Source: a bacterium A37T11 (GTDB taxonomy: Bacteria; Bacteroidota; Bacteroidia; Sphingobacteriales; Sphingobacteriaceae). From it: a stretch of DNA of 64,000 bases. The position numbers and the translations under genes are program-made. The notes under the pieces were generated by a model. The model worked only from the letters and a program-made list of their open reading frames with translations. It did not search any database and had not been told where the DNA came from. Positions 45,315 to 63,927 of the stretch are shown here, one piece after another. How positions within the stretch are numbered: position 1 is the stretch's first letter; each line of letters begins with the position of its first letter. The DNA lies in the NCBI GenBank assembly GCA_900109895.1, contig FOBR01000018.1, positions 1 through 64,000 of the forward strand. Direction: 5' to 3'.

Positions 45315-46666
45315 TTCTCTAATAACGACTCCATCAACACATCAAATACCTCTACGGCTTCCAGCTCGTCTTTTGCCAGCTTATTGCCGGTAATCAGTAC
45401 AGCATACATATCCTTGTTAGTGTGTACGCGGCCGTGAGAGCCTTTTATAAGGGTTGCATCCAGCGGAACGACGTCCATCACGTACCTCAGCGCTGCCTTT
45501 TTGCGCAAAAGTTTATAGCCGGCCCGGATTTTGGAGGTCATAAACATTTCGACAGGGTCATATCCGGGCTTTTTATGGATATCCACGCACCGGGCATAAT
45601 CCGGCGCCTTAGCATCGTCCTCCCAGAAATAATAAGTGAACCAGCTGTCTTTATCGGCCATGACAACAAGGTCACCTGCACGTTCGTGGTCAATATGGTA
45701 GGCTGATTGGATTTCTCGGTCTAGTACCAGCTCTACCCCTTTCGTGTTTTGTAATAGCTGCGATACTTGCTCTTTGACAGCAGGATCGTTGATGTAAATA
45801 TGGGCGATTTGATGGTCGGCTACAGCAAAGGCTTTTGACGATCCGGCATCTAGCAGTTCCAGCCCACGTTCTACCCGAATTTGCAAGAGCCCTGCCCTGC
45901 GCAATACGCGGTTCAGGTGAACGGGTTGATGTACGGGGGTTATGCCGTATTCCGAAAGAATGATCACATTGGTTTGTTGCTGTTCATAATGGGTTACAAG
46001 ATCCCGGGCAAGTTCATCGATCTGCCGGAGTTCGGGTGCAATGACGCGGAAGTCAGGGCCAAACTTTTGCAGGCAATAGTCCAAATGCGGCAAATAAATA
46101 ACCGTAAGGGTTGGATCATGTTTTTTGTCCGTATAGACGGATGCATCGGCGATCCACTTGCTGGAAGTTATGTTAGCGCCTGCGCCCCAAAATTGAAAAA
46201 GGGGAAATTGTCCAAGGCTACTTTGCAATTCATCGCGCAAACTGGCCGGCTGCGTATAACAATCGGGCATTTTACGTCCATCGGCCAAATAATTAGGCCG
46301 GGGCGTCACGGAGTAATCCACCGCGGCATACATATTATACCACCAGCACATTTGGGAACAGGTAAATGCCGGATCGAGCTTTTTTGCCTTTTCCCAAATC
46401 TTTTCTGCCAACACCAGTTTATTGGACTGCTTCCAGAACTTTACTTCGCAGTCGATACGGTCATACCATCCATTGCCCACGATGCCGTGTTCTGTTGGCC
46501 ATTTGCCAGTTAGATAGGTTGACTGCACGGAGTTAGTGACAGAAGAGAGCATGGGTTTTATTCGCTGTAGATGCCTTCCTTTGACATAGGAGTGCAAAAA
46601 AGGTGTATGTTCTCCAATAAGTGAGGATGAAAGACCAACAATATTGATGACGACAGTTTTTTTCAT
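45311..46666 (-). CDS. eboF: EboF-like alkaline phosphatase/phosphodiesterase-fold protein
   Basis: 451 residues. The type I phosphodiesterase/nucleotide pyrophosphatase fold (alkaline phosphatase superfamily) is shown by the N-terminal strand TVVINIVGLSSSLIGEHTPFL, the nucleophile region SSVTNSVQSTYLTGKWPTEHGIVGNGW, TVIYLPHLDYCLQKFG (metal Asp/His), NVIILSEYGITPV and GSHGRVHTNKDM (metal His). No signal peptide is obvious. Last gene of the ebo operon, 9 bases after eboE. In cyanobacteria this cluster is needed for scytonemin precursor export; the exact step of EboF is unknown. It could instead be read as a generic phosphodiesterase, but the context is decisive. Confidence 0.85.
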   Translation of the reverse strand: MKKTVVINIVGLSSSLIGEHTPFLHSYVKGRHLQRIKPMLSSVTNSVQSTYLTGKWPTEHGIVGNGWYDRIDCEVKFWKQSNKLVLAEKIWEKAKKLDPAFTCSQMCWWYNMYAAVDYSVTPRPNYLADGRKMPDCYTQPASLRDELQSSLGQFPLFQFWGAGANITSSKWIADASVYTDKKHDPTLTVIYLPHLDYCLQKFGPDFRVIAPELRQIDELARDLVTHYEQQQTNVIILSEYGITPVHQPVHLNRVLRRAGLLQIRVERGLELLDAGSSKAFAVADHQIAHIYINDPAVKEQVSQLLQNTKGVELVLDREIQSAYHIDHERAGDLVVMADKDSWFTYYFWEDDAKAPDYARCVDIHKKPGYDPVEMFMTSKIRAGYKLLRKKAALRYVMDVVPLDATLIKGSHGRVHTNKDMYAVLITGNKLAKDELEAVEVFDVLMESLLEN

Positions 46667-46675
46667 GGAATGACT

Positions 46676-47884
46676 TTATATGTGAAGCAATTGCTGTTTA
46701 ACCCAATCAAGTTCACGGATTATAGACTGGTCAATGGGTAACTTATGGGTATCCGGCAGGACCTCCCAGGTATAGGTTTCAACCTCCAGATGCCTAGTAG
46801 GGTGATGTTGCTGATGCTGGCGTAGCACTTGGGTAATGTCTTCCTGTGTGGATTGCAGTATACCAAATTGATTTGTAAAAACCGGGACGTGAAAATGTGC
46901 GCGCCACTCAGCCACATCTTGGTTTCCTGCATCAGCCAAGGCTTGGGGAAGATCAGGATAGCGAAGAAGCTGTCCATTTTTTGTTTGGGCAACTACCTGA
47001 TGTAGATAAGTACTTTCTTGGTAGCTGGCAAATCCACCAATAATGCGCTGTCTTTCTTCAACTACGGGCATCCTGGATTTCAATGCTGCGCTTATCTGGA
47101 ATTTTCCGATCCGGATACCAGCTGCCTGCAGCATATTCAAGACGCTTTCGTGTGGCTCGTAGCCGATGGCAAAATGGCACACATCGTAACATAGCCTTAC
47201 ATGACTCTTGAGCAGGTTTTCGGCTCCTGTAGCATCAACATCCAGGCTTTCCATAACCTGAAGTATAGCCTGAGGGAGCAAGTATTGCTCATACCATTGG
47301 ATAAATTCCGCGCCTGTTTCCAACATACCATCTGGCTCTGGTTCAATATCCAAATGAATCACCTGGCCGGTTTTCCGTTGGATCTGCATGAGGTGCAGTG
47401 CCACATCTATGAGCTGGGAGGTGGCCTGCCGGATAATGTCAGGCATTTCAGTCTGTCGAAACCAATGCCGATAGCTAAGGGGTGATGTAGATATACCTCC
47501 GTCCATTCCGGCAGGCAGTAGTTGGCTTAGGATATTTGCCAATCGCTTGGTATAGTTTCTGCGCGCATCACTGGTCCAGTCAGGGCTATGTACTTGATCC
47601 TTGACAACGGTGTGGTGGAAACCGCCGTAAGGAAATCCGTTTATAGTAAAAACGTAGGCATCCTGTTGTGCGAGCCAGTCTTTAAATTCTGCAATCTGGT
47701 CTCCCTCCTGTAACGCGATACTTGCAGCATTGGCAAGCCGCAAACCAATACCCATGGGCTGATGGGGAGATATCGCTTGTTTAATCGTTGGAAAATATTT
47801 TTTTAGCTCGGTAAAATGATCTGGCCAGGTTTCACCTGGGTGAATATTCGTGCAATAGGTTAAATGGGAATTTTCGATCTGCAT
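46676..47884 (-). CDS. eboE: EboE, TIM-barrel metabolite-traffic protein
   Basis: 402 residues resembling xylose isomerase-like TIM-barrel (AP endonuclease 2-type) proteins: LTYCTNIHPGETWPDHFTELKKYFP, YVFTINGFPYGGFH, VIHLDIEPEPDGMLE and RLCYDVCHFAIGYEPHESVL, where the Glu, Asp and His residues could bind metal. Bacteroidota members are annotated metabolite traffic protein EboE. One base separates it from eboD. Substrate unknown. Confidence 0.88.
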   Translation of the reverse strand: MQIENSHLTYCTNIHPGETWPDHFTELKKYFPTIKQAISPHQPMGIGLRLANAASIALQEGDQIAEFKDWLAQQDAYVFTINGFPYGGFHHTVVKDQVHSPDWTSDARRNYTKRLANILSQLLPAGMDGGISTSPLSYRHWFRQTEMPDIIRQATSQLIDVALHLMQIQRKTGQVIHLDIEPEPDGMLETGAEFIQWYEQYLLPQAILQVMESLDVDATGAENLLKSHVRLCYDVCHFAIGYEPHESVLNMLQAAGIRIGKFQISAALKSRMPVVEERQRIIGGFASYQESTYLHQVVAQTKNGQLLRYPDLPQALADAGNQDVAEWRAHFHVPVFTNQFGILQSTQEDITQVLRQHQQHHPTRHLEVETYTWEVLPDTHKLPIDQSIIRELDWVKQQLLHI

Positions 47885-47885
47885 A

Positions 47886-49052
47886 TCAGGTGAGATTTAA
47901 TTGATTAGTTCTTTCTCGTAGCTGGGCGGCTGATGCGATGATGAGCGACGCATTCAATTCATGAACTTCTACGCCTTGTCCGATGGCATCGAGCAGCATC
48001 ACCGTAAGCCGGCCTCCGAGATGCTCCCGGAATTCTTCCAGACCATTAAGTAATGCATTTGTACCAGGCCCTGGTTCGATGAGTGCGTGACTGATGGGCA
48101 AATCCAGGGCGACCAATACCTCAATGACACGGTTTGCATCAGCAACGGATATGCGGCCTTCCAAGGCTGAATAAAGGGTATCCAACGCAATTCCGATAGA
48201 CACTGCTTCTCCGTGTAATACATCAAATCCACTGATTTGCTCCAGTTTATGAGCGCTCCAGTGCCCAAAGTCAAGGGGACGTGATGATCCCTTTTCAAAC
48301 GGATCATTACTGCTGATATGTTCAAGGTGTAGACTGGCACTACGCTTGATTAGATATTCCATAGCCCCCTCATCACGCCGGGTAAGCTGTTCAGTATGTG
48401 CTTCGATCCACTCAAAAAAAACAGCATCTTTAATTAGGGCCACTTTAACTGCCTCGGAAATACCACTACACCACTGTCGATGAGAAAGACTTGTTAGAAA
48501 AGAAAAATCGTTGATTACAGCAACCGGCGGTGCAAAGGTGCCTAGGAAATTTTTTTTGCCTTGATAATTGATACCGTTTTTGACACCAACGCCTGAATCA
48601 TCCTGCGACAATACGGTGGTTGGAATACGGATATGCCGGATGCCACGGTGTGCGATAGCGGCTGCATAACCAACCGCGTCAAGCACAGCGCCACCACCAA
48701 TGGCAATGAGATATGAATGGCGGTCAATCCCAAAACGATTAATTGCGTCTACGATCCTTAGGTAATGTGTTTCGCTATTTTTGGCTTCCTCGCCGCCTGC
48801 AATAGTTAATATTTCAGGCACAAGGGCCACTTGGTCATATTTTTCAAAATAGGTGTGGATTTGTCCGGTCAAGTCCGGACGATGGGCAACTAGGCCCGCA
48901 TCCAATACAAAAAGTACCTTCGCTTGGTTGCCCTGGCTTGGCTGAGCAGAAAAGTATTCTGCCAACAACAAATTGTCTGGTTCAAATAGCTGCCGTGTGA
49001 AGTATACGTTGTATGTAAAAGGAACCTGAAATGTTTGTTTGATAAAATCCAT
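47886..49052 (-). CDS. eboD: EboD, 3-dehydroquinate synthase-like sugar-phosphate cyclase
   Basis: 388 residues from MDFIKQTFQVPFTYNVYFTR. The open frame extends to 49361 but the extra N-terminus is Cys-rich nonsense overlapping eboC. The NAD and metal sites are intact: AIGGGAVLDAVGYAAAIAHRG, RIPTTVLSQDDSGVGVKNG, GISEAVKVALI, FGHWSAHKLEQ and LHGEAVSIGI. It resembles 3-dehydroquinate synthase but belongs with the ebo family rather than the shikimate enzyme. It may cyclise a sugar phosphate to a cyclitol-type product that EboC then prenylates or anchors, but this is inference. Confidence 0.88.
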   Translation of the reverse strand: MDFIKQTFQVPFTYNVYFTRQLFEPDNLLLAEYFSAQPSQGNQAKVLFVLDAGLVAHRPDLTGQIHTYFEKYDQVALVPEILTIAGGEEAKNSETHYLRIVDAINRFGIDRHSYLIAIGGGAVLDAVGYAAAIAHRGIRHIRIPTTVLSQDDSGVGVKNGINYQGKKNFLGTFAPPVAVINDFSFLTSLSHRQWCSGISEAVKVALIKDAVFFEWIEAHTEQLTRRDEGAMEYLIKRSASLHLEHISSNDPFEKGSSRPLDFGHWSAHKLEQISGFDVLHGEAVSIGIALDTLYSALEGRISVADANRVIEVLVALDLPISHALIEPGPGTNALLNGLEEFREHLGGRLTVMLLDAIGQGVEVHELNASLIIASAAQLRERTNQLNLT

Positions 49053-49093
49053 GGCTTTGTAAATTAAATTGATATACGAGGTATTCCGGGAAT

Positions 49094-49978
49094 TTATGTC
49101 ACGGCAAATAGTTTTGAAAGTGCAATTGATATCGGCAACAAAATTAGGATGAAGATGGCTACATATAATGTACCAGCAGCTGCAGCCCAGGCAGCATTGA
49201 GCAGGATAAGGGCAATAACACCCGCTTTTACCGCTTTTCCTATATTTGGCCCAATCGGCTGAGCAATGGCTTTGAGGAGGGGCTTGCCAGTCATCCATAC
49301 AAGCCCTATAAGAAATAAAGAAGTAACAAGAGCCTGGTGACGATAAATGCCAAATGTCCATACTGAAAGGACTACCAGTAAATAAAGAAAAGCTGACAGG
49401 TATAAGGGGGTTCGGCTGCTTCCATGAACTTCTCCCCTGCTGATGGTGGTTACTGCGGCGATATATACAAGCGGTATGAGCGAAAGATAACCCAAGGCAG
49501 GAACGGCTGATGGCAGGATACTAATACCTAGTAAGAGGTTTAACCCGCGGCAAAGCCCCATGTTTAGTGGCCCAATAAGGGATTGATGTTTGGACCATTT
49601 ATTATAAACAAGTGCGCCAATTGCCGTCAAAATGGCGATCACACCGGAAAGGTTGCTGGCGATAAAGGCTGCAGTTATGCCGGTAAGCAACAAGATTAGC
49701 CCCAACAGCTGAGCTTCCTGTAAACGGACCACTCCTGAAGGTATGGGGCGTTCCGGGCGTTCCACCCGGTCAAGTTCGGCATCAAATACATCATTGAAGA
49801 CTACGCCCCCCCCGTAAAGCCCGATGGTTGAGAGACACAGCCAACCGATGCCTGGTGGCAGCGTGTGTTCTCTTTGTGCCCAGATTCCGGTAATAGCAGC
49901 ACCCGCCAATACATCTGCAATAGCGGTAATAATATTTGCCGGTCGCATTAATAGCAATAATCCCCTGAATTTATTCAT
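49094..49978 (-). CDS. eboC: EboC, UbiA-like membrane prenyltransferase
   Basis: 294 residues, about nine hydrophobic spans (FRGLLLLMRPANIITAIADVLAGAAITG...). The first Asp-rich motif NDVFDAELDRVERPERPIPSG is intact and would bind the prenyl diphosphate through Mg. The usual second Asp motif is replaced by ISRGEVHGSSRTPL. By family it transfers a polyprenyl group to an acceptor; in this operon it may attach a lipid carrier. 7 bases after eboB. Confidence 0.88.
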   Translation of the reverse strand: MNKFRGLLLLMRPANIITAIADVLAGAAITGIWAQREHTLPPGIGWLCLSTIGLYGGGVVFNDVFDAELDRVERPERPIPSGVVRLQEAQLLGLILLLTGITAAFIASNLSGVIAILTAIGALVYNKWSKHQSLIGPLNMGLCRGLNLLLGISILPSAVPALGYLSLIPLVYIAAVTTISRGEVHGSSRTPLYLSAFLYLLVVLSVWTFGIYRHQALVTSLFLIGLVWMTGKPLLKAIAQPIGPNIGKAVKAGVIALILLNAAWAAAAGTLYVAIFILILLPISIALSKLFAVT

Positions 49979-49985
49979 GAATGAT

Positions 49986-50972
49986 TTAACGGATGATAAT
50001 GCTTGATTTGTCTATCCTTGGCTGCTGTCCACCGCGTAATACGGTATTGCCTTCAAATTTGAGGCTTTGGTCTACCTGACTTGTTTTTTCAAAATCTGTT
50101 GTATCGATCTGCCCGCTTTGCCCGAATGCAGTGATGGCATTGTGATAGGTAACCGTTTCTACTTGAGCTTTACTGATGTCGCTGGCTAGCATGAGGGCGG
50201 CGGTTTTAGGAACAGCCAAGGGGTCACTGATGCCCCAATCGGCCGCCGAATTAACCATAATTCGTTCTGATCCGTATTGTTTAACGATCTCTACCATCCG
50301 TTCATTGCCCATTTTAGTAAATGGATAGATCGTAAAAGCAGCCCAAAAGCCCTTATCAAGTACTTCTTTAACGGTTTCTTCATTATTGTGGTCCACAATG
50401 ACGGTATACGGGTCTAGTCCATGTTCCAAGGCTATATCAATACTGCGATGGGTACCTTTTTTCTTATCACGGTGCGGGGTATGGATCTGCACAGGAAGAC
50501 TAGCTTCTTTGGCCAGTTCCAATTGCAAGCGGTAATACTTCTCTTCAGCGGCTGTCTGGTCGTCAAAACCGATCTCACCTATCCCTACAACACCTTCCTT
50601 AAAAAGAAAAAGCGGAAGGATTTCCATTACCTCAGCAGCCAACCGCTCATTATTGGCTTCACGGGAATTAAGGCCAATGGTGCAGTAATGTTTAATACCA
50701 AATTGCGAGGCACGAAATCGCTCCCATCCGATCAGGCTGCTGTAATAATCGATAAAACTGTCAATTCCAGTGCGTGGTTGACCTAACCAAAAGGCGGGCT
50801 CGATGATAGCGCTTATCCCCGCATCCGCCATCGCCTGATAATCGTCAGTCGTACGTGAAGTCATGTGGATATGCGGGTCAAAAAAACGCATTCCTGCAAT
50901 ATTGGTCAATTCTGGAGCGGTAAGCGGTCCTGTACCTGGTTCTTTATCGTGTATTGAGCGATTGCCACACAT
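49986..50972 (-). CDS. eboB: EboB, TatD-like metal-dependent hydrolase
   Basis: 328 residues. N-terminal metal motif FFDPHIHMTSR (HxH), then EGVVGIGEIGFDDQT, SLPVQIHTPHRDK, TVIVDHNNEETVKEVL and MVNSAADWGISDP, following the TatD/amidohydrolase order of ligands. The first 28 residues (MCGNRSIHDKEPGTG...) are extra; a start at MRFFDPHIHM is possible. Second gene of the ebo operon, 4 bases after eboA. Deoxyribonuclease function is not implied; the ebo member is a dedicated subfamily. Confidence 0.88.
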   Translation of the reverse strand: MCGNRSIHDKEPGTGPLTAPELTNIAGMRFFDPHIHMTSRTTDDYQAMADAGISAIIEPAFWLGQPRTGIDSFIDYYSSLIGWERFRASQFGIKHYCTIGLNSREANNERLAAEVMEILPLFLFKEGVVGIGEIGFDDQTAAEEKYYRLQLELAKEASLPVQIHTPHRDKKKGTHRSIDIALEHGLDPYTVIVDHNNEETVKEVLDKGFWAAFTIYPFTKMGNERMVEIVKQYGSERIMVNSAADWGISDPLAVPKTAALMLASDISKAQVETVTYHNAITAFGQSGQIDTTDFEKTSQVDQSLKFEGNTVLRGGQQPRIDKSSIIIR

Positions 50973-50976
50973 AAAT

Positions 50977-51708
50977 TTATGGATTATGCTGTTTATTTTC
51001 TTTTTCTTTATGGAAGGTCACGAGTAATTGGTCGATCAGGGGGTGTACTTCCCTACCAGCAGAGCGCCGCTCATCCCGGTAGTCGCTAAGCGTATCAGCA
51101 AGGCGGGCATTCATTCGTTCCTGCAAACCGATGATCTGTTCTACCGGCAATGCGACGAAAAATGCTTTAAGCACCAATTGGTTCCAAGGGCCTTCTTCTA
51201 ACTGGTCTGCTGGATAAGGATTGTTGCAAATGATAGCGCGCAATACATCACTTATATTGCTACGAATACCTTCGGCACAACGCATGCGCCAAGTTTCCGG
51301 ATAAGCCAGTAATGGTAATGCACTGTAAAGGGCGACCAATTCATTCATCTCCGCTACTCGAAACAATTGTTCTATTTGCCGAATATAGACTTGTTGATCT
51401 GTGGCATTCAGTTGCAATAACAAGCGAACCCTGAAAATTCGGCTCATGCTCCAACCATTAATATGAAATCCCTGGTGGATGAACTGAAAAATATTTTGTT
51501 CGTTATCGGTTAATTCCACAATCTTTTTGCCAATTTTGAGTGGTGCAGTGGCAAAACTTATAGAAAAACGGGTCCGGTACTGATCAATTTGAGCCCTTAC
51601 CCAAGCCCATTGTCCCTGATCCAAATGCCTGCTTAGCACTTCGTCAAAAAGCGCAATCAATTTATTGTTTTTGGATTGATTAAGTGATTCATGTTGTAAC
51701 CAAGACAT
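50977..51708 (-). CDS. eboA: EboA domain protein
   Basis: 243 residues, mostly helical, no catalytic motif. Distinct parts: FRVRLLLQLNATDQQVYIRQIEQLFRVAEMNELVALYSALPLLAYP and ADQLEEGPWNQLVLKAFFVALPVEQIIGLQERM, which match the EboA pattern known only from ebo clusters. First gene of the operon; the promoter box TAAATTTG on the minus strand ends 4 bases before the ATG. Function unknown. Confidence 0.88.
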   Translation of the reverse strand: MSWLQHESLNQSKNNKLIALFDEVLSRHLDQGQWAWVRAQIDQYRTRFSISFATAPLKIGKKIVELTDNEQNIFQFIHQGFHINGWSMSRIFRVRLLLQLNATDQQVYIRQIEQLFRVAEMNELVALYSALPLLAYPETWRMRCAEGIRSNISDVLRAIICNNPYPADQLEEGPWNQLVLKAFFVALPVEQIIGLQERMNARLADTLSDYRDERRSAGREVHPLIDQLLVTFHKEKENKQHNP

Positions 51709-51842: not shown

Positions 51843-52499
51843 ATGTTATCCAGTACGGAGGAAAATTATCTTAAAGCGTTGTTACGGATTGCCACTGAAA
51901 AAGACGGCAATGGTGAAGCGGGGACTAATCAGTTAGCATTAAAGCTAAATGTTAAGCCCGCTACAGCTACCGATATGCTTAAGAAATTAAAAGAAAAAGG
52001 GCTGGTTGAATATCAAAAGTATAAAAAGATCTCGCTCACTGACACAGGTCGGGCTTTAGCAACTGGCATAATACGTAAGCATAGGTTATGGGAAACTTTC
52101 CTTTTCAAAAAGCTTGGTTTTAGCTGGGACGAGGTGCATGATGTGGCAGAACAATTAGAGCATATTCAATCTGATAAACTAGTGGAACAACTGGATAACT
52201 TTCTTGGATATCCTCAATTTGACCCACATGGAGACATGATTCCCAGGGCTAACGGCGAATTAAAATCTGATAAGTCTGTTACATTGGCCGAAACGCTGGT
52301 AGGCACACAATACACCATTGTATCAGTTACTGATAATGGTCCTGACTTTTTGCAATATTTAAGCCAATTAAAACTTGGCATCCAAAGCGTAATTCATGTG
52401 CTTACTCGTTTTGATTTTGATGGTTCGGTAGTTTTAAAGCTGCATGATCATGAAGTGACAGTTTCGAAAAAAGTAGCTGAAAATATTTACGTGGTTTAA
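51843..52499 (+). CDS. DtxR-family metal-dependent regulator
   Basis: 218 residues. N-terminal winged helix 1-62 (YLKALLRIATEK, LALKLNVKPATATDMLKKLKEKGLVEYQKYKKISLT), dimerisation/metal domain about 63-125 (GIIRKHRLWETFLFKKLGFSWDEVHDVAEQLEHIQSDKLVEQLDNFLGYPQFDPHGDMIP, with metal-type His, Glu and Asp residues) and a C-terminal FeoA/SH3-like domain about 150-218. Represses iron or manganese uptake genes when metal is bound; the metal is not certain. Divergent from the ebo operon and followed by smpB after 28 bp. Confidence 0.93.
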   Translation: MLSSTEENYLKALLRIATEKDGNGEAGTNQLALKLNVKPATATDMLKKLKEKGLVEYQKYKKISLTDTGRALATGIIRKHRLWETFLFKKLGFSWDEVHDVAEQLEHIQSDKLVEQLDNFLGYPQFDPHGDMIPRANGELKSDKSVTLAETLVGTQYTIVSVTDNGPDFLQYLSQLKLGIQSVIHVLTRFDFDGSVVLKLHDHEVTVSKKVAENIYVV

Positions 52500-53257: not shown

Positions 53258-56200
53258 ATGGAAAGCATGGTTCCTATAAATACAACTGTTCATGACATGT
53301 TGGGTTATTGGCTAAGCCATACACCTAATACTCCTGCCATTCTTTACAATAATGAACAGATTACATATGCCGAATTGGAACATCGGGCAGAGCTTCTGAA
53401 ACAGTTCATTTTATTGACAGATCTGACAACCCCTATCATAGGAATCAGCACTTCCAGGCAAATAGAGATGGTTGTGGGAATATTGGCTATCTTAAAAGCA
53501 GGTAAAGCCTATTTACCGCTTGACCCTAACTATCCCATAGATCGTTTAACGCAAATTTCCCAAGATGCAGAGATATCCATTTGCCTTTGTAGTGCTTATG
53601 AAGCTAATATTTTTGAAAAGGTCGCAACAAAGTTATTGGTATATGACCAGGACCAACCTATAGCAATGAGCCCATCAAAAATGAGTGTAGATAAGGGTTC
53701 CCTGGCTTATGTATTGTATACCTCAGGATCAACAGGTACTCCAAAAGGTGTATGTATGGGCCATAAAGCACTTATAAACCTGCTTGAATGGCAGAAAACG
53801 ACTTCTGTGGCAGGTCCTGGAACCAAAACTTTACAATTTGCCCCACTCAGTTTTGATGTTTCTTTTCAGGAGATTTTTGCCACGTTAAGCACAGGCGGCA
53901 CGTTGGTATTGATTGATGATGATATGCGATTGGATTCAGCTGAACTGCTTTCATTTATAGAAAAGGAAGGAATTAACCGAATTTTTCTGCCTTTTGTAGC
54001 ATTACAGATGTTGACAGATACTGCTAGTTTCCATAATATTTTTCCGGCGAGCTTACAGGAAGTGATCACAGCGGGCGAACAGCTGAAGATTACACCACAG
54101 GTGTCTAATTTTTTTGAAAAAATTCCGAGTGCGGTTTTATATAACCAATATGGTCCAACGGAATGCCATGTAGTAACTGCTCTAAAGCTGGATGGAAAAC
54201 CAAAAACATGGCCGGAACTTCCAAATATTGGTAAACCTATTTGGAACACCAATATTTTCATTCTTGATGAACAGGGGAAGGAATTGGATAGGGGCAATAC
54301 CGGAGAACTTTGCATTGGAGGCATTAGTTTGGCCGATGGTTACCTAAATCGCCCTCAACTGACAGCTGAAAAGTTTATATACTGGAAACATCCTACGCAT
54401 GGAGAACTGCGTATATATAAAACCGGTGATCTTGCCAGGTATCTGTCCAATGGTGAAATTGAGTTCCTTGGGCGTAAGGATGACCAGGTAAAGATTAGGG
54501 GCCACCGAATCGAACCAGGCGAAATTGAAGGGTTGCTTATCTTGCATCCCCAGGTTAAGAATGCTGTCATTTTGGCAAGGGGTATACACGCTGATGATAA
54601 AAAATTACTTGCATATCTCCTCCCTAATGGAGAAAGTTGTGATACAGCTGAATTAAGAAAATATTTGGAAAAAAGACTACCGGAATACATGGTTCCCAAT
54701 GTTTTTATCTGGATGGACAGCTTTCCGAAAACATCGAGTGGTAAAGTGGATAAAAAAGCTTTGCCTGATCCAGATATTAAACGTCCGGAGCTGAGCGTTC
54801 TTTATAAAAAACCTGATACACTCGTTGAAAAGAACATTGCAGCTCTATGGATGGAACTTTTGCAATACGACCGTATTGGCATAAATGATAATTTTTTTGA
54901 GCTAGGCGGGAATTCGCTGCTGGCACAAAAAACCGTCAATCTTCTCAAACAGCGATTTGGTTATAAATTACCTATTACCAGACTCTATCTACACCCAACA
55001 ATAGCAAACCTAGCGAAGTTTATTGAAGGAAAGGAAAGCCCCTTGGTCACCTCAAAAATTAAAAGGGATCCTGGCACAACTGCAAAAGATATTGCCATCA
55101 TTGGAATGGATGGCCGTTTCCCTGGTGCGAATTCGGTAGAGGATTTATGGGAAGTGCTGAAAGACGGAAAGGAAACGATTTCTTTTTTCAAGGAAGAAGA
55201 ACTGGATCCATATATTCCCGCTTCCAGGAGAAACGATCCTTCTTATGTCTCTGCCCGTGGGGTTATTCAAAACCCAGACCAATTTGACCCCGCCTTTTTT
55301 GGCATTAGTCCCCGTATGGCCGAGCTTATGGATCCACAACAGCGGCTTTTTTTGGAATTGTCACGTAATGTGCTAGAAAAGTGTGGCTACCTTTCAGAAA
55401 AGAAAAAGGCTTCTGTGGGAGTTTTTACCGGAAGCAATAACAATACCTATTATGTAAACAATGTGTTGAGCCATCCGGAAAAAATTGATAAGGTGGGGGC
55501 TTTTAACGTAAGTCTTGTGTCTGACAAGGATTATATAGCTACACGCACAGCTTACCAGTTAAATTTAGAAGGTCCGGCTGTCAGCGTGTTCACGGCTTGT
55601 TCCACCTCATTGCTTGCAGTGGTCCAGGCGGTGGAAAGCATACAGCGAGGCCAGTGTGAAGTAGCTATTGCCGGCGGGGTGACCATAACCGTGCCGGTAA
55701 ATAGTGGCCACATTTATGAAGAAGGTGCCATGTTTAGTAAGGACGGGCATACACGTACCTTTGACGCTCAGGCAACGGGTACGGTTTTTAGCGATGGTGC
55801 TGGCGTAGTGTTGCTCAAATCCTTGGCAGACGCAAGGCGTGACGGTGATAAGGTCTATGCAGTCATTAAGGGTGTGGGCCTAAACAATGACGGGAGTTCC
55901 AAAGGCAGCTTTACAGCTCCAAGCGCTGAAGGGCAGGCCGGAGCAATACTAATGGCCCTTAGTGACGCAAATATAGACCCTTCAACCATTTCTTATGTGG
56001 AGGCACACGGCACAGCGACTCCACTCGGAGATCCGATAGAGATAGCAGGACTCAAAATGGCTTTTGGCGAACAGGAAGCTAAACAATATTGTGCCATTGG
56101 CTCTATTAAAAGCAATATGGGCCACTTAACACATGCAGCAGGTGTTACTGGTCTGATCAAAACGGCACTGTCACTTCATTATAAGCAGCTACCCCCAACG

Positions 56201-59200
56201 ATCAATTTTGAGCAGGAAAATCCAAATATTGATTTTAAAAACAGCCCCTTTCGTGTTCAATCAAAATTAGCCGACTGGGAAAGTCAGGGAACCAGAAGGG
56301 CTGGGGTGAGCTCTTTTGGTGTGGGTGGTACCAATGTTCATGTTATTATGGAAGAGGCACCAGAGGAGTTGGTCCCCGCCACTCCAATGGAAATGCCTAT
56401 GTATCTCATTAATTGGTCTGCAAAGACCCGAGAAAGTGCATGGGCATATGCCTCAAAATTGACGACTTATTTGTCGCAAACATCTGATGTAAATTTGGCG
56501 CAAATAGCCTACACGCTGCAAACAACACGGGTGGATTATAATCATCGCTGTTTTGTAACAGCTGCTAATACCGATGAACTGATCAGTAAATTGGAAAACA
56601 GTACTTTATTGGAAGGCAGTCTTTCAGAACTAATGGAAGAGCAGCGCGAATTGGCGTTTATGTTTCCTGGACAGGGTGCCCAATATATTAACATGGGCAA
56701 AGAGATGTATTTGCGTGAACCCGTCTTTAAAAAAGCAGTGGATGATTGCCTCGCAATTCTTGATAAAGAGATGCAGGAGTCTATATTACCCGTCCTGTAT
56801 CCGGAGATCATTACAGATGATTCTGCTGCTCAATTGAAAAATACTTATTATACTCAACCTGCCTTGTTCATAACCGAATATGCGCTGGCAAGATGGTGGA
56901 TAAGTATAGGAATTAAACCAACTGCATTTATTGGACATAGTGTCGGAGAGTTTGTAGGAGCGCATTTAGCTGGTGTTTTTTCCCTGGCAGATGCCCTGAA
57001 ACTAATTGTAGCGAGAGGTAAGTTAATTAGCAAATTGCCGAAAGGAAGCATGCTTTCTGTTCGGAAAGGAATAGAAACCGTGCGTTCTTTGCTCCCTTCA
57101 TCGATATCTGTGGCCGCCATCAATGCACCAAATCTTGTCGTCGTGGCCGGAAAAGATGAAGATATTGCAGATTTTGCCAAACTACTGGACCAGGAAAATA
57201 TAGCAAATAAGCTTTTAAAAACCAGCCATGCTTTCCATTCAGATATGATGGTTCCGATTATTTCTGAATTTGAAGCTGTTGTCAAGGAAATTACCTTAAA
57301 TATTCCTCAAATGTCGGTTGTATCTACAGTAACCGGACAGTGGATGAAGGATCAGGAAGCGACTGATCCAGCCTATTGGGCTGGACATATCCGCGCTACG
57401 GTGCGATTTTCTGAGTCCGTCATCTTCCTTTATGATGAATTGCAGCCCGTGATGCTCGAAGTTGGGCCAGGAAATGTAACGGCGACCCTTGCCAGGCAAC
57501 ACGGCTCGGCAATAGCAGCAAAGGTTGTTGGGGGTCTTGACACTTCGGCCAATGCAGGCGTACATTCTGAATACTTTAGCGTGCTGCACGCAGCAGGTAA
57601 ACTGTGGTCGGCAGGTATAAGCTTCAATTGGCTCAAGCTCTATCCGTCAAAACCCGCGCTTTTACATACATTGCCTGCTTATGCTTACCAATATAGTCGA
57701 TTTTGGATTGATCCAAATATTTTACCTGACAAACAAAGTATTCAAATAGTTCAGGAAAACGCAGAACATACATTAGTTCCTTCAGTTATGAGAAAAGAAA
57801 CACTTATATTCAAGATTAAGCAACTTTTGGAAGATGCTTCCGGCATCGATATAGCCGGTGCAAAACCGCAAACCAGCTTTATCGAATTGGGTTTGGATTC
57901 ATTGCTTCTTACCCAAATAGCGGCCAGCCTAAAGAAAGAATTCAAGGTCCCACTAACCTTTAGGCAGCTAAATGAGGAATATAGCAACCTGGATACGTTA
58001 GCAACCTATCTTGATAAAACACTTCCGCCCGATAATGCAATCGTAAACACAGTAAACCCTGCTCCGAAAAGCACGCAGCCTGCCCCGGCATGGACGCCTG
58101 CACCTGTTTTTGCCAATAACGGGTTGCAAGGGCAAACGGCCTTAAATCTGATTGCTCAACAAATGAACCTGTTAGCACAGCAAATTGCGTTATTACAGGG
58201 GGTACCAGAATCCGCTGTACCGCATGGCTCCTTGCAGGTACCGGATACAGCAAAAAGCCTTTCTGCTCCCATTCCTGAAATGGAGGTCACCGCGGAGGAA
58301 GCTGTTGAATTAAAAAAACCTTTCGGGGCCACAGCGCGCATCGACCGTCATGTAATCGGGCTGGATGCAGAACAGGAAGCCTTCCTCAAAAAATTTACGC
58401 TTGATTATAATCAGAAAACAAAAGCCAGTAAAACATATTGCCAGGATAACCGCTCTTTTATGGCTGACCCACGTGTGGTTTCAGGTTTTAAGCCCCTAAC
58501 AAAAGAGTTGGTTTACTCCTTGGTGGTAAATCGTTCAAAAGGCAGCCGCGTATGGGACTTGGATGGTAATGAATACATTGATGCATTAAACGGCTTTGGA
58601 TCCAATTTTTTGGGTTATCAGCCAGATTTCATTAAAGATGCCCTGCATGCGCAGGTTGAACAAGGATATGAAATCGGCCCTCAGCATGAATTAGCTGGCA
58701 AAGTCTGTAAACTGATTACAGAATTTATTGGGCATGATCGGGCTGCACTTTGCAACACAGGTTCTGAGGCCGTTTTGGGAGCTATGCGGATCGCCCGTAC
58801 AGTAACAGGCAGGTCCATTATCGTGGCTTTCTCCGGATCTTATCATGGCATAAACGACGAGGTACTGGTACGAGGCACCAAAAAGTTGAAAACTTTTCCG
58901 GCTGCCTCTGGCATCCTAGGTGAGAATGTGCAGCAAATGCTTATACTTGAATATGGTACTGAGGAATCACTTAACATTATCCAGGAACGTAGCGATGAGA
59001 TTGCAGCCGTACTGGTTGAACCGGTTCAAAGCCGACGTCCAGAATTTCAACCTGTGGAATTCTTGAAGAAATTGCGTACGTTAACTGAAAATTCGGGTTC
59101 TGTACTGATCTTTGATGAAGTTATTACCGGATTTAGGATGCATCCTGGGGGTGCACAGGCTCTATTTGGGATAAAAGCAGACTTGGGAACCTACGGAAAA

Positions 59201-59863
59201 GTGATCGGTGGTGGTATCTCTATTGGGATTATTGCCGGCAAGAAGGCCTATATGGATGCTTTGGATGGTGGCTTTTGGCAATATGGGGATGATTCCGTAC
59301 CCGAGGTGGGTGTCACCTACTTTGCCGGCACCTTTGTTCGTCATCCACTAGCTTTGGCTACAACCTATGCAACATTGGCATATCTTAAAGAGCAAGGCCC
59401 TTCTCTTCAACAACAGTTAAACGAACGGACAACTTATTTAGCTGAGGCTCTAAACAAGATTTGTGAAATCAATGGAATTCCCATCTATATTGCACATTTC
59501 GGATCACTTTGGAAGATCAAATTTAAGGACGAGTACAGCTATTACGATTTATTATTTACAGTAATGAGACATAAAGGTATTCACATTTGGGATGGTTTCC
59601 CCTGTTTTCTAACCACCGCACATTCACAGGCAGATATCGATGTGATTATTGAGGCTTTTCACGGTGCGGTTCGGGATTTGTTAGCAGCTGGTTTCATTCC
59701 TTCATCTAAGCCGGCTTCAAATTCGACGAACAGTGCCTTGTCATTTAACACTCCCCCCGTTGCAGGGGCGAGACTGGGCAAAGACAAAAGCGGCAACCCA
59801 GCATGGTTTATTCAGGACCCAAAAAATGAAGGGAAATATTTACAGATAACTGCAAATATTTGA
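53258..59863 (+). CDS. Hybrid NRPS-PKS megasynthase A-PCP-KS-AT-ACP-aminotransferase
   Basis: 2201 residues. Domain order by motif: adenylation 1-510 (LYTSGSTGTPKG, YGPTECHVV, KTGDLARYL, K496 region KTSSGKVDKKAL). PCP about 520-590 (LGGNSLL, S553). Ketosynthase 610-1035 (C781 in TACSTSL, H917 in EAHGTATPLGDP, H956 in NMGHLTHAAG). Acyltransferase 1130-1430 (GHSVGEF, S1228; HAFH at 1324-1327 indicates malonyl-CoA). ACP about 1510-1585 (LGLDSLL, S1548). Pro/Gln-rich linker. Class-III PLP aminotransferase 1690-2150 (CNTGSEAV, FDEVITGFR, K1981 in GTYGKVIGGG). Tail ARLGKDKSGNPAWFIQDPKN typical after such aminotransferases. No condensation domain at the front, no ketoreductase. It starts a chain with one amino acid, adds two carbons, then aminates the beta-ketone. 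Confidence 0.95.
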   Translation: MESMVPINTTVHDMLGYWLSHTPNTPAILYNNEQITYAELEHRAELLKQFILLTDLTTPIIGISTSRQIEMVVGILAILKAGKAYLPLDPNYPIDRLTQISQDAEISICLCSAYEANIFEKVATKLLVYDQDQPIAMSPSKMSVDKGSLAYVLYTSGSTGTPKGVCMGHKALINLLEWQKTTSVAGPGTKTLQFAPLSFDVSFQEIFATLSTGGTLVLIDDDMRLDSAELLSFIEKEGINRIFLPFVALQMLTDTASFHNIFPASLQEVITAGEQLKITPQVSNFFEKIPSAVLYNQYGPTECHVVTALKLDGKPKTWPELPNIGKPIWNTNIFILDEQGKELDRGNTGELCIGGISLADGYLNRPQLTAEKFIYWKHPTHGELRIYKTGDLARYLSNGEIEFLGRKDDQVKIRGHRIEPGEIEGLLILHPQVKNAVILARGIHADDKKLLAYLLPNGESCDTAELRKYLEKRLPEYMVPNVFIWMDSFPKTSSGKVDKKALPDPDIKRPELSVLYKKPDTLVEKNIAALWMELLQYDRIGINDNFFELGGNSLLAQKTVNLLKQRFGYKLPITRLYLHPTIANLAKFIEGKESPLVTSKIKRDPGTTAKDIAIIGMDGRFPGANSVEDLWEVLKDGKETISFFKEEELDPYIPASRRNDPSYVSARGVIQNPDQFDPAFFGISPRMAELMDPQQRLFLELSRNVLEKCGYLSEKKKASVGVFTGSNNNTYYVNNVLSHPEKIDKVGAFNVSLVSDKDYIATRTAYQLNLEGPAVSVFTACSTSLLAVVQAVESIQRGQCEVAIAGGVTITVPVNSGHIYEEGAMFSKDGHTRTFDAQATGTVFSDGAGVVLLKSLADARRDGDKVYAVIKGVGLNNDGSSKGSFTAPSAEGQAGAILMALSDANIDPSTISYVEAHGTATPLGDPIEIAGLKMAFGEQEAKQYCAIGSIKSNMGHLTHAAGVTGLIKTALSLHYKQLPPTINFEQENPNIDFKNSPFRVQSKLADWESQGTRRAGVSSFGVGGTNVHVIMEEAPEELVPATPMEMPMYLINWSAKTRESAWAYASKLTTYLSQTSDVNLAQIAYTLQTTRVDYNHRCFVTAANTDELISKLENSTLLEGSLSELMEEQRELAFMFPGQGAQYINMGKEMYLREPVFKKAVDDCLAILDKEMQESILPVLYPEIITDDSAAQLKNTYYTQPALFITEYALARWWISIGIKPTAFIGHSVGEFVGAHLAGVFSLADALKLIVARGKLISKLPKGSMLSVRKGIETVRSLLPSSISVAAINAPNLVVVAGKDEDIADFAKLLDQENIANKLLKTSHAFHSDMMVPIISEFEAVVKEITLNIPQMSVVSTVTGQWMKDQEATDPAYWAGHIRATVRFSESVIFLYDELQPVMLEVGPGNVTATLARQHGSAIAAKVVGGLDTSANAGVHSEYFSVLHAAGKLWSAGISFNWLKLYPSKPALLHTLPAYAYQYSRFWIDPNILPDKQSIQIVQENAEHTLVPSVMRKETLIFKIKQLLEDASGIDIAGAKPQTSFIELGLDSLLLTQIAASLKKEFKVPLTFRQLNEEYSNLDTLATYLDKTLPPDNAIVNTVNPAPKSTQPAPAWTPAPVFANNGLQGQTALNLIAQQMNLLAQQIALLQGVPESAVPHGSLQVPDTAKSLSAPIPEMEVTAEEAVELKKPFGATARIDRHVIGLDAEQEAFLKKFTLDYNQKTKASKTYCQDNRSFMADPRVVSGFKPLTKELVYSLVVNRSKGSRVWDLDGNEYIDALNGFGSNFLGYQPDFIKDALHAQVEQGYEIGPQHELAGKVCKLITEFIGHDRAALCNTGSEAVLGAMRIARTVTGRSIIVAFSGSYHGINDEVLVRGTKKLKTFPAASGILGENVQQMLILEYGTEESLNIIQERSDEIAAVLVEPVQSRRPEFQPVEFLKKLRTLTENSGSVLIFDEVITGFRMHPGGAQALFGIKADLGTYGKVIGGGISIGIIAGKKAYMDALDGGFWQYGDDSVPEVGVTYFAGTFVRHPLALATTYATLAYLKEQGPSLQQQLNERTTYLAEALNKICEINGIPIYIAHFGSLWKIKFKDEYSYYDLLFTVMRHKGIHIWDGFPCFLTTAHSQADIDVIIEAFHGAVRDLLAAGFIPSSKPASNSTNSALSFNTPPVAGARLGKDKSGNPAWFIQDPKNEGKYLQITANI

Positions 59864-59889: not shown

Positions 59890-62800
59890 ATGTTAACATA
59901 TACTCCAACAGATTTTGATCCCTTTTCAGGAAATACCATTGAAAAGGTTTTTCCGGTGATTCCCGCACAGCAGGAAATATGGTTGTCTTGCATAATGGGT
60001 GGCGATGACGCAAACCGTGCTTATAATGAGTCCATCAGCATTTTTTTGGATGGAAAAGTTAATCTGAACGCTTTAGAAAAAAGCTTGCACCAACTCCTTT
60101 TGCGTCACCAAGCATTAAGGTCGTGTTTTAGTAATAATGGTGAGTGGGTGATTGTTTATAAAAACCCTCCAATACAACTAACTATCGTAGACCTGCATAA
60201 TAAAGGTGACGTAGACCAGGACGATTGCATTAATTCTTTTCTTAAAAACGACGCCCTGACTGCATTTAACCTTTCAGACGGCCCTCTATTTAGAGCTTAT
60301 ATACATTTGCTTAATGAAACCAATACGAAGCTAACGATAACCGCACATCATTTGGTTTGCGATGGCTGGTCTTTGGGCATCCTTCTTCAGGACTTAAGCA
60401 AATTCTATAATGCGTATAGCCAAGAATTGCAACCTATGTTGCCTACAGCCATTTCAATGAGTGATTATGCCCTGGAAGAATTATCTTTTATTCAAAGTAA
60501 TGAATATAAAAAAATGGAGGCCTATTGGGTAGGATTGTTCCGGTCAGGTGTTCCTTTGGTTGACCTGCCTACTGACAACCCTCGCACGTCTCCGCGCACA
60601 TACGAAGCTAAACGGCATGATTTTCCGCTGGATTCAAGCCTGATGTCAACTGTAAAAAAATTGGGTGCATCCAAAGGAATAAGCTTAGTGAATACGTTGA
60701 TTTGTGCTTTTGAAGTACTCCTATATAAAATTACCGGACAACAAAATCTCGTGTTGGGCCTTCCGTCTGCTGGTCAATCCATTGGGAGTTTCTATCACTT
60801 GGTAGGCCATTGTGTTAATTTATTACCACTAAAAAGCTGCGTTAACCCTGCCATAAGCTTTGAAGAATATTTGGCAGTACGAAAAGCCGAATTATTGGAC
60901 GCCTATGATCATCAGCGAGTGACATTTGGAGAACTGATTAAAAAAATCAATGTACAGCGCGATAATGCCCGGGTACCACTAGTACCTGTTGTTTTTAATA
61001 TTGACATTGGCATGGATGATGGCGTAACCTTTCACGACCTTAAGCATCATTTATCATACAATAAGAGATCATATGAAACATTCGAAATTTTCTTAAACAT
61101 TGCAGGTCGAGGAGATGACTTTACGTTGCAATTGTCGTATAATAGCTACCTATTCAAATCGGAAAGAATAGAAAACATAATACAAGCTTTTAGCTCTTTA
61201 TTGGCGTTGATAGCTAACCAACCAGATATATTGATCCGTGATATTTCCCTTGATGTATTTACAAATGTAGTTAATCCAAGCTCTGAGGTCACAGTACAGG
61301 CTAGTATCTATCCTGCAAACGCTATGCTTACCGATCTATTAGATGATATAGCGTTTTTATATCCTCAAAAAATAGCAATCATTGGAAGGGAAAATCAACT
61401 TTCTTATTCTGAAATTTACAAAAAATCCAATCAGTTAGCCTCTTTGCTTATTCAAAAAGGGGTTAAATCAGGAGATATAGTTGGTTTATCAGTATATCGC
61501 AGCCCGGAGATGATTATTGCATTGCTTGCAATTCTGAAGTCAGGCGCCGCCTATGTTCCGCTTGATCCCTCTTATCCAAAAGACCGCTTGGAATATATGA
61601 TCGGTGATGCATCTGTTAACTTATTGATCACCAACTTTGTTTTTAAAAACAGGCTAAATAGCAAAGCGGAAGAGCTTTATTTGGAAGAGTCTTTGCTCCT
61701 ATTAGAAAATTATCCGGATGAGAAACCCTTAATAAAATCAAATAGCAAGCAACTTGCTTATATTCTTTATACTTCCGGATCTACAGGAAAACCTAAAGGG
61801 GTGATGGTGAGCCATCGAAATCTGGTAAATTTGATGTGGGGTTTAAAAATAGAACCTGGTTTACAATTTGAAGATAAGTTCTTAGCCCTAACCACAATCT
61901 CTTTTGATATTGCAGGGACTGAAATTTATTTACCCTTATTAGTAGGTGCTACCATTGTTTTGGCTGATGATGGTGCTTCAAAGGACGGCCGTGTTATTCA
62001 TCAATTAATCAAAGAAGAACAAATTACGGTTATGCAGGCAACTCCCGCAACCTGGCGCAATATGCTGAGCACAGGATGGGATAATCCATACCCCATCCGA
62101 ATTTTCTCCACTGGTGAAGAACTCCCGCTAGAATTGGCTAAGCAACTTTTGAGAAAATGCAGGGAACTTTGGAATGGTTACGGTCCTACCGAAACCACCA
62201 TCTGGTCCACCATTAAACAAGTAGATCCCAACGACACTATTATTTCGATCGGCAAACCTGTTGCTAATACCAGCATTTATATACTTGATGAGCATCGCCA
62301 TATTTTACCGGCGTCGGCAACTGGTGAAATTTATATTGGAGGGGACGGCGTGACACTGGGATACCTAAATCTTCCGGACCAAACTGAAGAACGCTTTTTA
62401 AAAGATCCCTTCAGTCAGGATCAATTTGCCAAAATGTATCGAACCGGAGACTTGGGTAGGTATTTGGAGAATGGAGAAATTCAGTGTTTGGGAAGGATTG
62501 ACAACCAAGTGAAGATAAGGGGATATCGAATAGAACTGGATGAGATAGCGTCAGTTATAAGTAGGCATCCCGAAGTAGATGCTGCTATGGTAAATGCTGT
62601 CGATTTTGGCCATGGAGATATGCGTTTAGTGGCTTATGTAATTCCGAAAGATATTGACCGATATCAGATTGTAAACCAGCAGAATAATGATCAAGAATTA
62701 TCTGTAATAGCATTACCGAATGCAGAAATTAACCAACTAAAAACGGCCTTAAAAGAATTTCTACCTGATTATATGATTCCCCCTTACTGGGTTGGAATAA

Positions 62801-63927
62801 ATCGATTTCCGCTAACTCCCAACCAAAAAATTGACAAGAAGGCACTTCCTTTACCCGGACCTTTGTCAACAGTTTCGCAAACAAATAAAGAAGTCGAAAA
62901 TCCAAACGAAAAGTTCCTAAAAGAACTTTGGAAGCAGGAACTCCAATTGTCTGAGGTAAAGTTAACTGACGATTTTTTTGATCTTGGAGGCCATTCGCTG
63001 GCTGCGGTACGCATTATGGTGGCAATTGAAAAAGAATTGGGGATTAAATTGCCAATTTCGGCATTGTTTGAAAATCCTACAATACAAAAACTCGCGTCCT
63101 TATTAGATAATGATAGCAATACTTCTTCTTGGAATTCACTGGTTAAAATTAAGCCCAATGGCAGCAAAATAGCTATTTACCTTATTCATGGAGGGGGTCT
63201 CAACGTTCTCAACTTTCAATCCATGGCAAAATATATGGATAGTGAACAACCTGTGTATGGAATGCAGGCATTAGGTTTAAACGGGGAAACAAAGCTTTTT
63301 AGTACGATAGAAGAAATTAGCAAAATATACGTGGATGAAATTATCCAAAACGATCCAAATGGGCCTTATGCACTGGCTGGATATTCCATGGGTGGGCTTC
63401 TTGCATATGAAATGGCTAGGCAGTTGATGAACTTAGGAAAAGAAATAAAAATGCTTGGAATTATGGATACAAATGCGTCGATGCGAAAACCAGATCTCAC
63501 AATGAGCAAAAAGTTATTAACAAAAATAGTTCGTCAGATTAAAAAAATTGGTTTTATTATACGTTCTCTAATTAACCATCCCAAAAAAACATTACAATAT
63601 CAAACACATATTCTATCAAAAAAAATATCTCCATTCTTGCACGAACCCCACGAAGATGTATTTAGCTACGATCCAAATATTATAAAACATTATGATTTGG
63701 CTTATGACACTTATAAAATGAACCCTTTACCTGTCAAGGTTGATTTATTCAGAGTTAAGGAAAGGATTTACTTTTTAGATGATTTAATTTATTTGGGATG
63801 GAAAGAATATGCACTTTATGGTGTCAACGTCCATGAAATTCCTGGCGACCATAAAACTTTTTTATACCCTCCCAACGACCAAGAATTAGCCAAAATCCTC
63901 CAAGCTCGGTTGGATCAACTAAATTGA
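59890..63927 (+). CDS. NRPS termination module C-A-PCP-TE
   Basis: 1345 residues. Condensation 20-450 (HHLVCDGWS; H153/H154, D158). Adenylation about 480-985 (LYTSGSTGKPKGVMV, SFDIAGTEIYLPL, NGYGPTETTIW, YRTGDLGRY). PCP about 1005-1075 (LGGHSLAAV, S1036). Thioesterase 1090-1345 (GYSMGGLLAYE, S1166; D1193; H1321 in GDHKTF). Begins 26 bases after the first megasynthase. It condenses the beta-amino acyl chain from the upstream ACP with a second amino acid and releases the product, by hydrolysis or cyclisation. All catalytic residues are present. Confidence 0.95.
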   Translation: MLTYTPTDFDPFSGNTIEKVFPVIPAQQEIWLSCIMGGDDANRAYNESISIFLDGKVNLNALEKSLHQLLLRHQALRSCFSNNGEWVIVYKNPPIQLTIVDLHNKGDVDQDDCINSFLKNDALTAFNLSDGPLFRAYIHLLNETNTKLTITAHHLVCDGWSLGILLQDLSKFYNAYSQELQPMLPTAISMSDYALEELSFIQSNEYKKMEAYWVGLFRSGVPLVDLPTDNPRTSPRTYEAKRHDFPLDSSLMSTVKKLGASKGISLVNTLICAFEVLLYKITGQQNLVLGLPSAGQSIGSFYHLVGHCVNLLPLKSCVNPAISFEEYLAVRKAELLDAYDHQRVTFGELIKKINVQRDNARVPLVPVVFNIDIGMDDGVTFHDLKHHLSYNKRSYETFEIFLNIAGRGDDFTLQLSYNSYLFKSERIENIIQAFSSLLALIANQPDILIRDISLDVFTNVVNPSSEVTVQASIYPANAMLTDLLDDIAFLYPQKIAIIGRENQLSYSEIYKKSNQLASLLIQKGVKSGDIVGLSVYRSPEMIIALLAILKSGAAYVPLDPSYPKDRLEYMIGDASVNLLITNFVFKNRLNSKAEELYLEESLLLLENYPDEKPLIKSNSKQLAYILYTSGSTGKPKGVMVSHRNLVNLMWGLKIEPGLQFEDKFLALTTISFDIAGTEIYLPLLVGATIVLADDGASKDGRVIHQLIKEEQITVMQATPATWRNMLSTGWDNPYPIRIFSTGEELPLELAKQLLRKCRELWNGYGPTETTIWSTIKQVDPNDTIISIGKPVANTSIYILDEHRHILPASATGEIYIGGDGVTLGYLNLPDQTEERFLKDPFSQDQFAKMYRTGDLGRYLENGEIQCLGRIDNQVKIRGYRIELDEIASVISRHPEVDAAMVNAVDFGHGDMRLVAYVIPKDIDRYQIVNQQNNDQELSVIALPNAEINQLKTALKEFLPDYMIPPYWVGINRFPLTPNQKIDKKALPLPGPLSTVSQTNKEVENPNEKFLKELWKQELQLSEVKLTDDFFDLGGHSLAAVRIMVAIEKELGIKLPISALFENPTIQKLASLLDNDSNTSSWNSLVKIKPNGSKIAIYLIHGGGLNVLNFQSMAKYMDSEQPVYGMQALGLNGETKLFSTIEEISKIYVDEIIQNDPNGPYALAGYSMGGLLAYEMARQLMNLGKEIKMLGIMDTNASMRKPDLTMSKKLLTKIVRQIKKIGFIIRSLINHPKKTLQYQTHILSKKISPFLHEPHEDVFSYDPNIIKHYDLAYDTYKMNPLPVKVDLFRVKERIYFLDDLIYLGWKEYALYGVNVHEIPGDHKTFLYPPNDQELAKILQARLDQLN

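Follow-up and report, generated by a model that had tools for sequence, protein, structure and literature searches.

Our analysis of a 64-kb stretch of bacterial DNA (contig FOBR01000018.1, positions 1 to 64,000; hereafter the window) indicates that its first adenylation domain, A1, probably initiates a compact hybrid assembly line, one that would load L-proline, extend it with a malonyl unit, aminate the beta position, add one more amino acid and release the product through a TE domain. The specificity code of A1 is DVQFIAQVVK, with glutamine at GrsA position 322, where proline domains usually carry histidine. As part of this explanation, the replacement of the usual His322 by Gln is most likely neutral or of mild effect. 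The genome in which the window lies is a draft of 5.09 Mb in 60 contigs and is 97.48% complete.

A1 occupies positions 53258–54811 of the window, on the plus strand like all of the assembly-line features described here, and forms an initiation module that no C domain precedes (PF00501, aa 20–363, E 9.2e-65; PF13193, aa 422–496). It opens an ORF of 2201 aa (53258–59863) whose domain order, from Pfam matches and motifs, is A-T-KS-AT-T-AMT. A1 is followed by carrier domain T1 (54836–55024; PF00550, aa 527–589), with the motif FFELGGNSL, and by a ketosynthase (KS; 55085–56557; PF00109, PF02801 and PF16197) in which TACSTSL (Cys) and both EAHGTAT and SNMGH (His) are present. The acyltransferase (AT; 56657–57493; PF00698, aa 1134–1412) has the motifs GHSVGE and HAFHS, the HAFH of which we take to mark the malonyl type. 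Carrier domain T2 was placed from two PF00550 stretches at 57800–57997, limits that are approximate, with ELGLDSL at 57884, and the protein ends in a PLP aminotransferase domain (AMT; 58517–59587; PF00202, aa 1754–2110). The best solved relative of the AMT was the aminotransferase of mycosubtilin synthase MycA (PDB 6kfm) at 410.9 bits, the next protein scoring 186.6; the first protein has both the KS-AT-T-AMT order of MycA and a GSA-like aminotransferase in cis. The next ORF (59890–63927) encodes the partner protein, which Pfam, motifs and alignment resolve as C-A2-T-TE, with the A2 code DITQFTGIWK. A Pfam scan of the assembly-line proteins found no ketoreductase or other reductive domain.

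GrsA numbering was anchored with a GrsA fragment that matched PDB 1amu at 102/102 residues (chain 234–335). On this numbering a MAFFT alignment gave DVQFIAQVV for A1 (D200, V201, Q204, F243, I270, A272, Q297, V305 and V306 in its own numbering), completed by K496 of the A10 motif. Gln297, the equivalent of position 322, lies in the motif NQYGPTE and is encoded at 54146–54148. The ten residues are those that a first-pass annotation had read by eye, and an independent HMMER alignment agreed at 322, where the Gln of NQYGPTE pairs with the His of NHYGPSE in TycB1 and GrsB1; the same alignment bore out the annotation's further observation that FDVxxQEIF and, after A5, HVV are common to A1 and these two domains. 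The annotation had also stated that a single change, His to Gln at 322, separates A1 from proline domains of the gramicidin and tyrocidine type. This stands against the consensus of modular proline domains between D235 and K517, VQ(Y/F)IAHVV in the available text of PMC3874040, with which A1 agrees at seven of eight positions. It does not stand against the gramicidin S and tyrocidine domains themselves, the codes of GrsB1 and TycB1 in our MAFFT alignment both being DVQSIAHVV (DVQSIAHVVK with the lysine), so that A1 differs twice, at 278 (Phe where they have Ser) and at 322 (Gln where they have His).

The first-pass annotation had raised the possibility of proline loading, which both the code and the nearest solved relatives of the A1 pocket by sequence, two proline domains, support. 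A search of the PDB with the A3–A5 segment returned seven sequences below 1e-12, headed by TycB1 (9bfd_B; 81.8 bits) and GrsB1 (8p5o; 79.4 bits), whereas five LgrA chains, each matching in two separate stretches, reached at most 53.8 bits (34.0 for the best stretch by itself). The title of 8p5o describes a proline activating adenylation domain, GrsB1-Acore. With the whole A core, GrsB1 scored 273.4 bits and TycB1 263.5, and other chains no more than 239.8, except that five long LgrA chains stood near 406 bits; two A domains are apparently added up in these scores, as LgrA constructs with one domain scored 209–214. The bit scores of the A3–A5 segment put the likeness of A1 to TycB1 and GrsB1 beyond chance resemblance. 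Two points weigh against proline, namely the Phe at 278 and the modest identity over the pocket segment, which was 47/122 for TycB1 and 45/122 for GrsB1 (37–39%), compared with 32/94 for GrsA-Phe. GrsB1 and TycB1 are elongation domains, whereas A1 is an initiation domain placed before a KS.

Published codes point in the same direction. The terminal proline domains of telomycin-type Tem22 proteins combine DVQF with Gln322, and the consulted part of PMC9113097 assigns proline both to DVQFVAQVVK, from a predicted cluster of S. formicae KY5 and one residue from the A1 code, and to DVQFVSQVMK of S. canus; unlike A1, these domains have Val299 and belong to the terminal module of a lipopeptide line. 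Phe at 278 likewise occurs in a domain that the available text of PMC2866473 lists as proline-activating, ituri002 (DVQFIAHVXK). In a homology model of the stand-alone proline domain CcbC, as described in the accessible sections of PMC3874040, proline contacts the invariant Asp and Lys and only V202, A274 and V306; mapped by code order, these fall at positions 236, 301 and 330, where A1 also has Val, Ala and Val. The consensus of stand-alone proline ligases of the PltF/CcbC type given in the same text, L(L/F)YLALVC, is not that of A1, which reads VQFIAQVV and lies within a protein of 2201 aa. The exact strings DVQFIAQV and DVQLIAHVVK were not found in the open-access literature searched, where Gln-type code prefixes occurred in a single paper. 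Taken together, the sequence evidence makes proline the most likely, and best-supported, substrate of A1.

This reading is drawn from sequence and not from fold. Modelled with AlphaFold, A1 had the form of a normal A domain (mean pLDDT 88.4, pTM 0.82), and among the best 50 rows of a fold comparison GrsB1 ranked 14th (Z 51.6) and TycB1 32nd (Z 49.7), below an engineered TycA (Z 53.1) and LgrA (Z 52.8). Among the best 50 Foldseek rows TycB1 was 25th, and 8p5o was absent from the rows listed. Fold scores thus showed no preference for proline domains, and with TycA and LgrA structures outranking GrsB1 fold likeness does not speak for proline; it was set aside as a test of specificity.

The first-pass annotation had implied that the change from His to Gln was significant, a suggestion that the distribution of the two residues does not favour. 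Named genomes were scanned with a profile built from an alignment of seven A1-family domains and with the patterns [ST]FDVSFQE and Y[VI]L[YFH]TSGST, and the sample consisted of the best 80 of 591 stretches that were confirmed, with resemblance to a Gln322 query as the ranking criterion. DVQ-type codes made up 58 of these best 80, a share that is built in, since the scan pattern favours V236 and Q239; 36 of the 58 had Gln322 and 22 His322, which, although the pattern leaves out position 322, is still no unbiased frequency. Within the best 80 of 591, the phyla with DVQ codes containing Gln322 were Bacteroidota, Cyanobacteriota, Pseudomonadota, Myxococcota, Chloroflexota, Planctomycetota and Actinomycetota, and one further such locus bears no phylum label; six of the 80 had the exact nine code residues of A1. 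For 59 DVQ domains, 58 of them with residue 322 masked, a maximum-likelihood tree (short search; 23/56 inner branches open) called for at least 13 changes of the His/Gln label, four of them forced by well-supported branches. Shuffled labels gave a mean of 17.9 changes, and 4/500 shuffles were as low as 13; the labels are therefore partly clustered, which suggests a residue that is partly inherited and often swapped. A larger FastTree phylogeny of 235 rows, from which 20 near-identical rows and one short row had been dropped and which carried warnings for long branches meeting and for odd residue composition, gave three changes between DVQ and other codes and at least 11 between His322 and Gln322. 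As judged from these alignments and trees, Gln322 is an ordinary natural variant that by itself offers no argument against proline. Alternation of His and Gln at 322 in DVQ-type domains of several phyla should be useful to code predictors.

A proline analogue such as hydroxyproline, methylproline, pipecolate or azetidine-2-carboxylate, with Gln322 as part of the adaptation, is an unlikely substrate, though one with precedents in the literature. Where Gln322 codes have been assigned to proline in print, the substrate was deduced from the cluster and its product (available text of PMC9113097), that of S. formicae being itself a predicted telomycin cluster, and telomycin, the product that goes with the Gln322 code DVQFVSQVMK, contains cis- and trans-3-hydroxyproline according to the part of PMC6331918 consulted, so that a published Gln322 domain might see hydroxyproline rather than proline. 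The azetidine-carboxylate code DMQLVSQQVK, given in the accessible portion of PMC12283262, also has Gln322, and codes of analogues, pipecolate and azetidine-carboxylate among them, reportedly can barely be distinguished from those of the parent amino acids. In the literature and loci examined, no domain with Gln322 had a substrate that had been measured. The named loci were also searched for such a domain in a cluster of assigned product; in the three Myxococcota candidates (L055, L059 and L063) the neighbouring codes did not fit myxochromide, and they were rejected. Against a special substrate, the occurrence of Gln322 with DVQ in seven named phyla among the best 80 of 591 loci is rather wide, and no enzyme for supplying a proline analogue was recognized among ten neighbouring proteins, eight of which had a Pfam match and two of which had none (one of the two being an EboA-domain protein by NCBIfam). 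At the level of the genome, which is 97.48% complete, a pyrroline-5-carboxylate reductase match was present and no match to the ornithine-cyclodeaminase family was found, a combination that slightly favours plain proline over pipecolate formed by an ornithine cyclodeaminase.

The assembly line belongs to a family that recurs among relatives of the source organism. Scoring no more than three candidates per genome, matches to A1 (E ≤1e-100) were found in 84/399 genomes from its family, representing 7/25 genera. First modules were compared in 83 cases, comprising 79 of the 84 matching genomes and four others (G003, G013, G044 and G058), with G061, G121, G123, G138 and G361 left out. Position 331, an alignment gap in DVQ rows, was re-read by motif (118 agreeing; 72 gaps filled, with 69 Val and three Ile). 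Of the 83 domains, 49 had a DVQ code with Gln322, one a DVQ code with His322 and 33 other codes; Gln322 is the usual state among DVQ members of the family. DVQFMAQVV was the commonest code (35/83), and DVQFIAQVV occurred in 7/83, including A1 itself. Second-module codes varied, with 59/83 starting DILQ (31+19+6+2+1) and resembling the glycine code DILQLGMIWK that appears in the consulted text of PMC12283262; the code of A2 (61360–62847), DITQFTGIWK, differs from these glycine-like codes. Both modules were proline-type, DVQFMAQ in the first and DVQYMAQ in the second, in Pedobacter-type loci (L044, L045, L051, L057, L177, L178, L180, L182, L183, L184 and L187).

The diversity of first-module codes bears on a second alternative, that A1 no longer takes proline and loads a different amino acid, small or hydrophobic, a shift that sister domains of the family appear to have made. 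The 33/83 non-DVQ codes include DAMIIAMVC, DAQFTGIVC and DVWHLSLID, and the smallest strongly supported set holding A1 in the 235-row tree contains 28 non-DVQ rows beside 55 with DVQ and Gln322, which indicates that pocket changes are common in the A1 lineage. The A1 code nevertheless keeps D235, V236, Q239, I299, A301, V330 and V331 of GrsB1 and TycB1, and we consider such a departure improbable for A1 itself. Nineteen first A domains (L039, L189, L192, L193, L196–L199, L201, L202, L204, L205, L207–L210 and L212–L214) have codes such as DAMNIAMVC, DAMIIAMVC and DAVNIAMVA and share 49–64% mean identity with A1 per 40-residue block around the pocket, which looks like a proline-type pocket that has drifted to another substrate. 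Three further first A domains with Asp/Ser-like codes (L042, L043 and L226) show 23–32% mean identity to A1 over approximately residues 161–320 of the aligned stretch and about 50% thereafter, a dip as would be expected for A-subdomain swapping.

That A1 or the cluster is inactive, or that A1 is bypassed, has nothing specific in its favour and is very improbable, as the core motifs checked are intact in both assembly-line proteins, a phosphopantetheinyl transferase gene (L034:2-661) follows the assembly-line genes just past the end of the window, and the layout is kept, with an A-first protein ending in AMT in 73/73 relatives retrieved and a C-A stretch next in 71/73 (fused in L205; lacking in L185 and in L220, which a contig end cuts).

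With L-proline as the substrate, A1 would activate it and load it onto T1, and the KS would extend the prolyl unit by one malonyl unit, which the AT would select. Since a ketoreductase was not found, the beta-keto group would pass to a beta-amine by way of the MycA-like aminotransferase. In MycA the same KS-AT-T-AMT logic gives a beta-amine from a fatty acid starter, whereas the starter here would be the aminoacyl unit supplied by A1 and T1. The predicted unit, 3-amino-3-(pyrrolidin-2-yl)propanoyl, is a vicinal diamine. The first-pass annotation had foreseen an amine beside a pyrrolidine, which agrees in outline; it had placed the new amine on the ring, whereas the predicted position is the exocyclic carbon adjoining it. 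The partner protein would join a second amino acid to this unit, and release of the product would fall to the TE. Attack of the pyrrolidine nitrogen on the carbonyl could close a ring and give a 1-aminopyrrolizidin-3-one, which is put forward as a chemical possibility only. The dolaproine unit of dolastatin 10 is a related case, also consisting of proline and a two-carbon polyketide unit, with a beta-oxygen in place of the beta-amine predicted here.

More tentatively, the family as a whole may make vicinal-diamine pyrrolidines, that is, peptides with a 3-amino-3-(pyrrolidin-2-yl)propanoyl unit, which on release might cyclize to 1-aminopyrrolizidin-3-ones or to small diaza rings. Producers would then be common among Pedobacter-like Bacteroidota, and some Burkholderiales would join them with His322 in place of Gln. 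We know of no isolated example of such a vicinal-diamine pyrrolidine scaffold. The predicted beta-amino pyrrolidine unit was not found in the titles and abstract openings of the open-access literature searched, which is weak evidence of absence. Four loci from Burkholderiales and Pseudoxanthomonas (L075–L078) have a His322 DVQ-type A domain, then (KS-)AT-(T-)AMT and then a DILQ-type A domain, which by their domain order is the same assembly logic outside Bacteroidota.

The layout is not new in itself, and Gln322 is not an oddity of this organism. A-T-KS-AT-T-AMT was already catalogued in 2013, when Pedobacter heparinus C6XWU5 was listed as A-CP-KS-AT-CP-PLP1 with the predicted product Nrp-Mal-Gly-Pk (available part of PMC3870968); compared by layout, its domain order is identical to that of our first protein, and its first substrate is given as Nrp. 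A genome-mining study of Pedobacter put NRPS-PKS hybrids at 12% of clusters, and its main text nowhere mentions proline (PMC12181424). Our data describe, in Bacteroidota, a widespread and apparently uncharacterized family of assembly lines built from two proteins, in which the first position carries a proline-type code in some members and a different code in others. The family offers a ready system for studying pocket change, and its members may yield vicinal-diamine products.

Two other features of the window lie upstream of the assembly line. An ebo-like cluster on the minus strand (45311–51708) encodes an EboA-domain protein, a TatD-like hydrolase, a UbiA prenyltransferase, a dehydroquinate-synthase-like protein and a type I phosphodiesterase. 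A DtxR/MntR-type metal-dependent regulator with a FeoA domain (51843–52499) is encoded on the same strand as the assembly-line genes, approximately 760 bases upstream of them.
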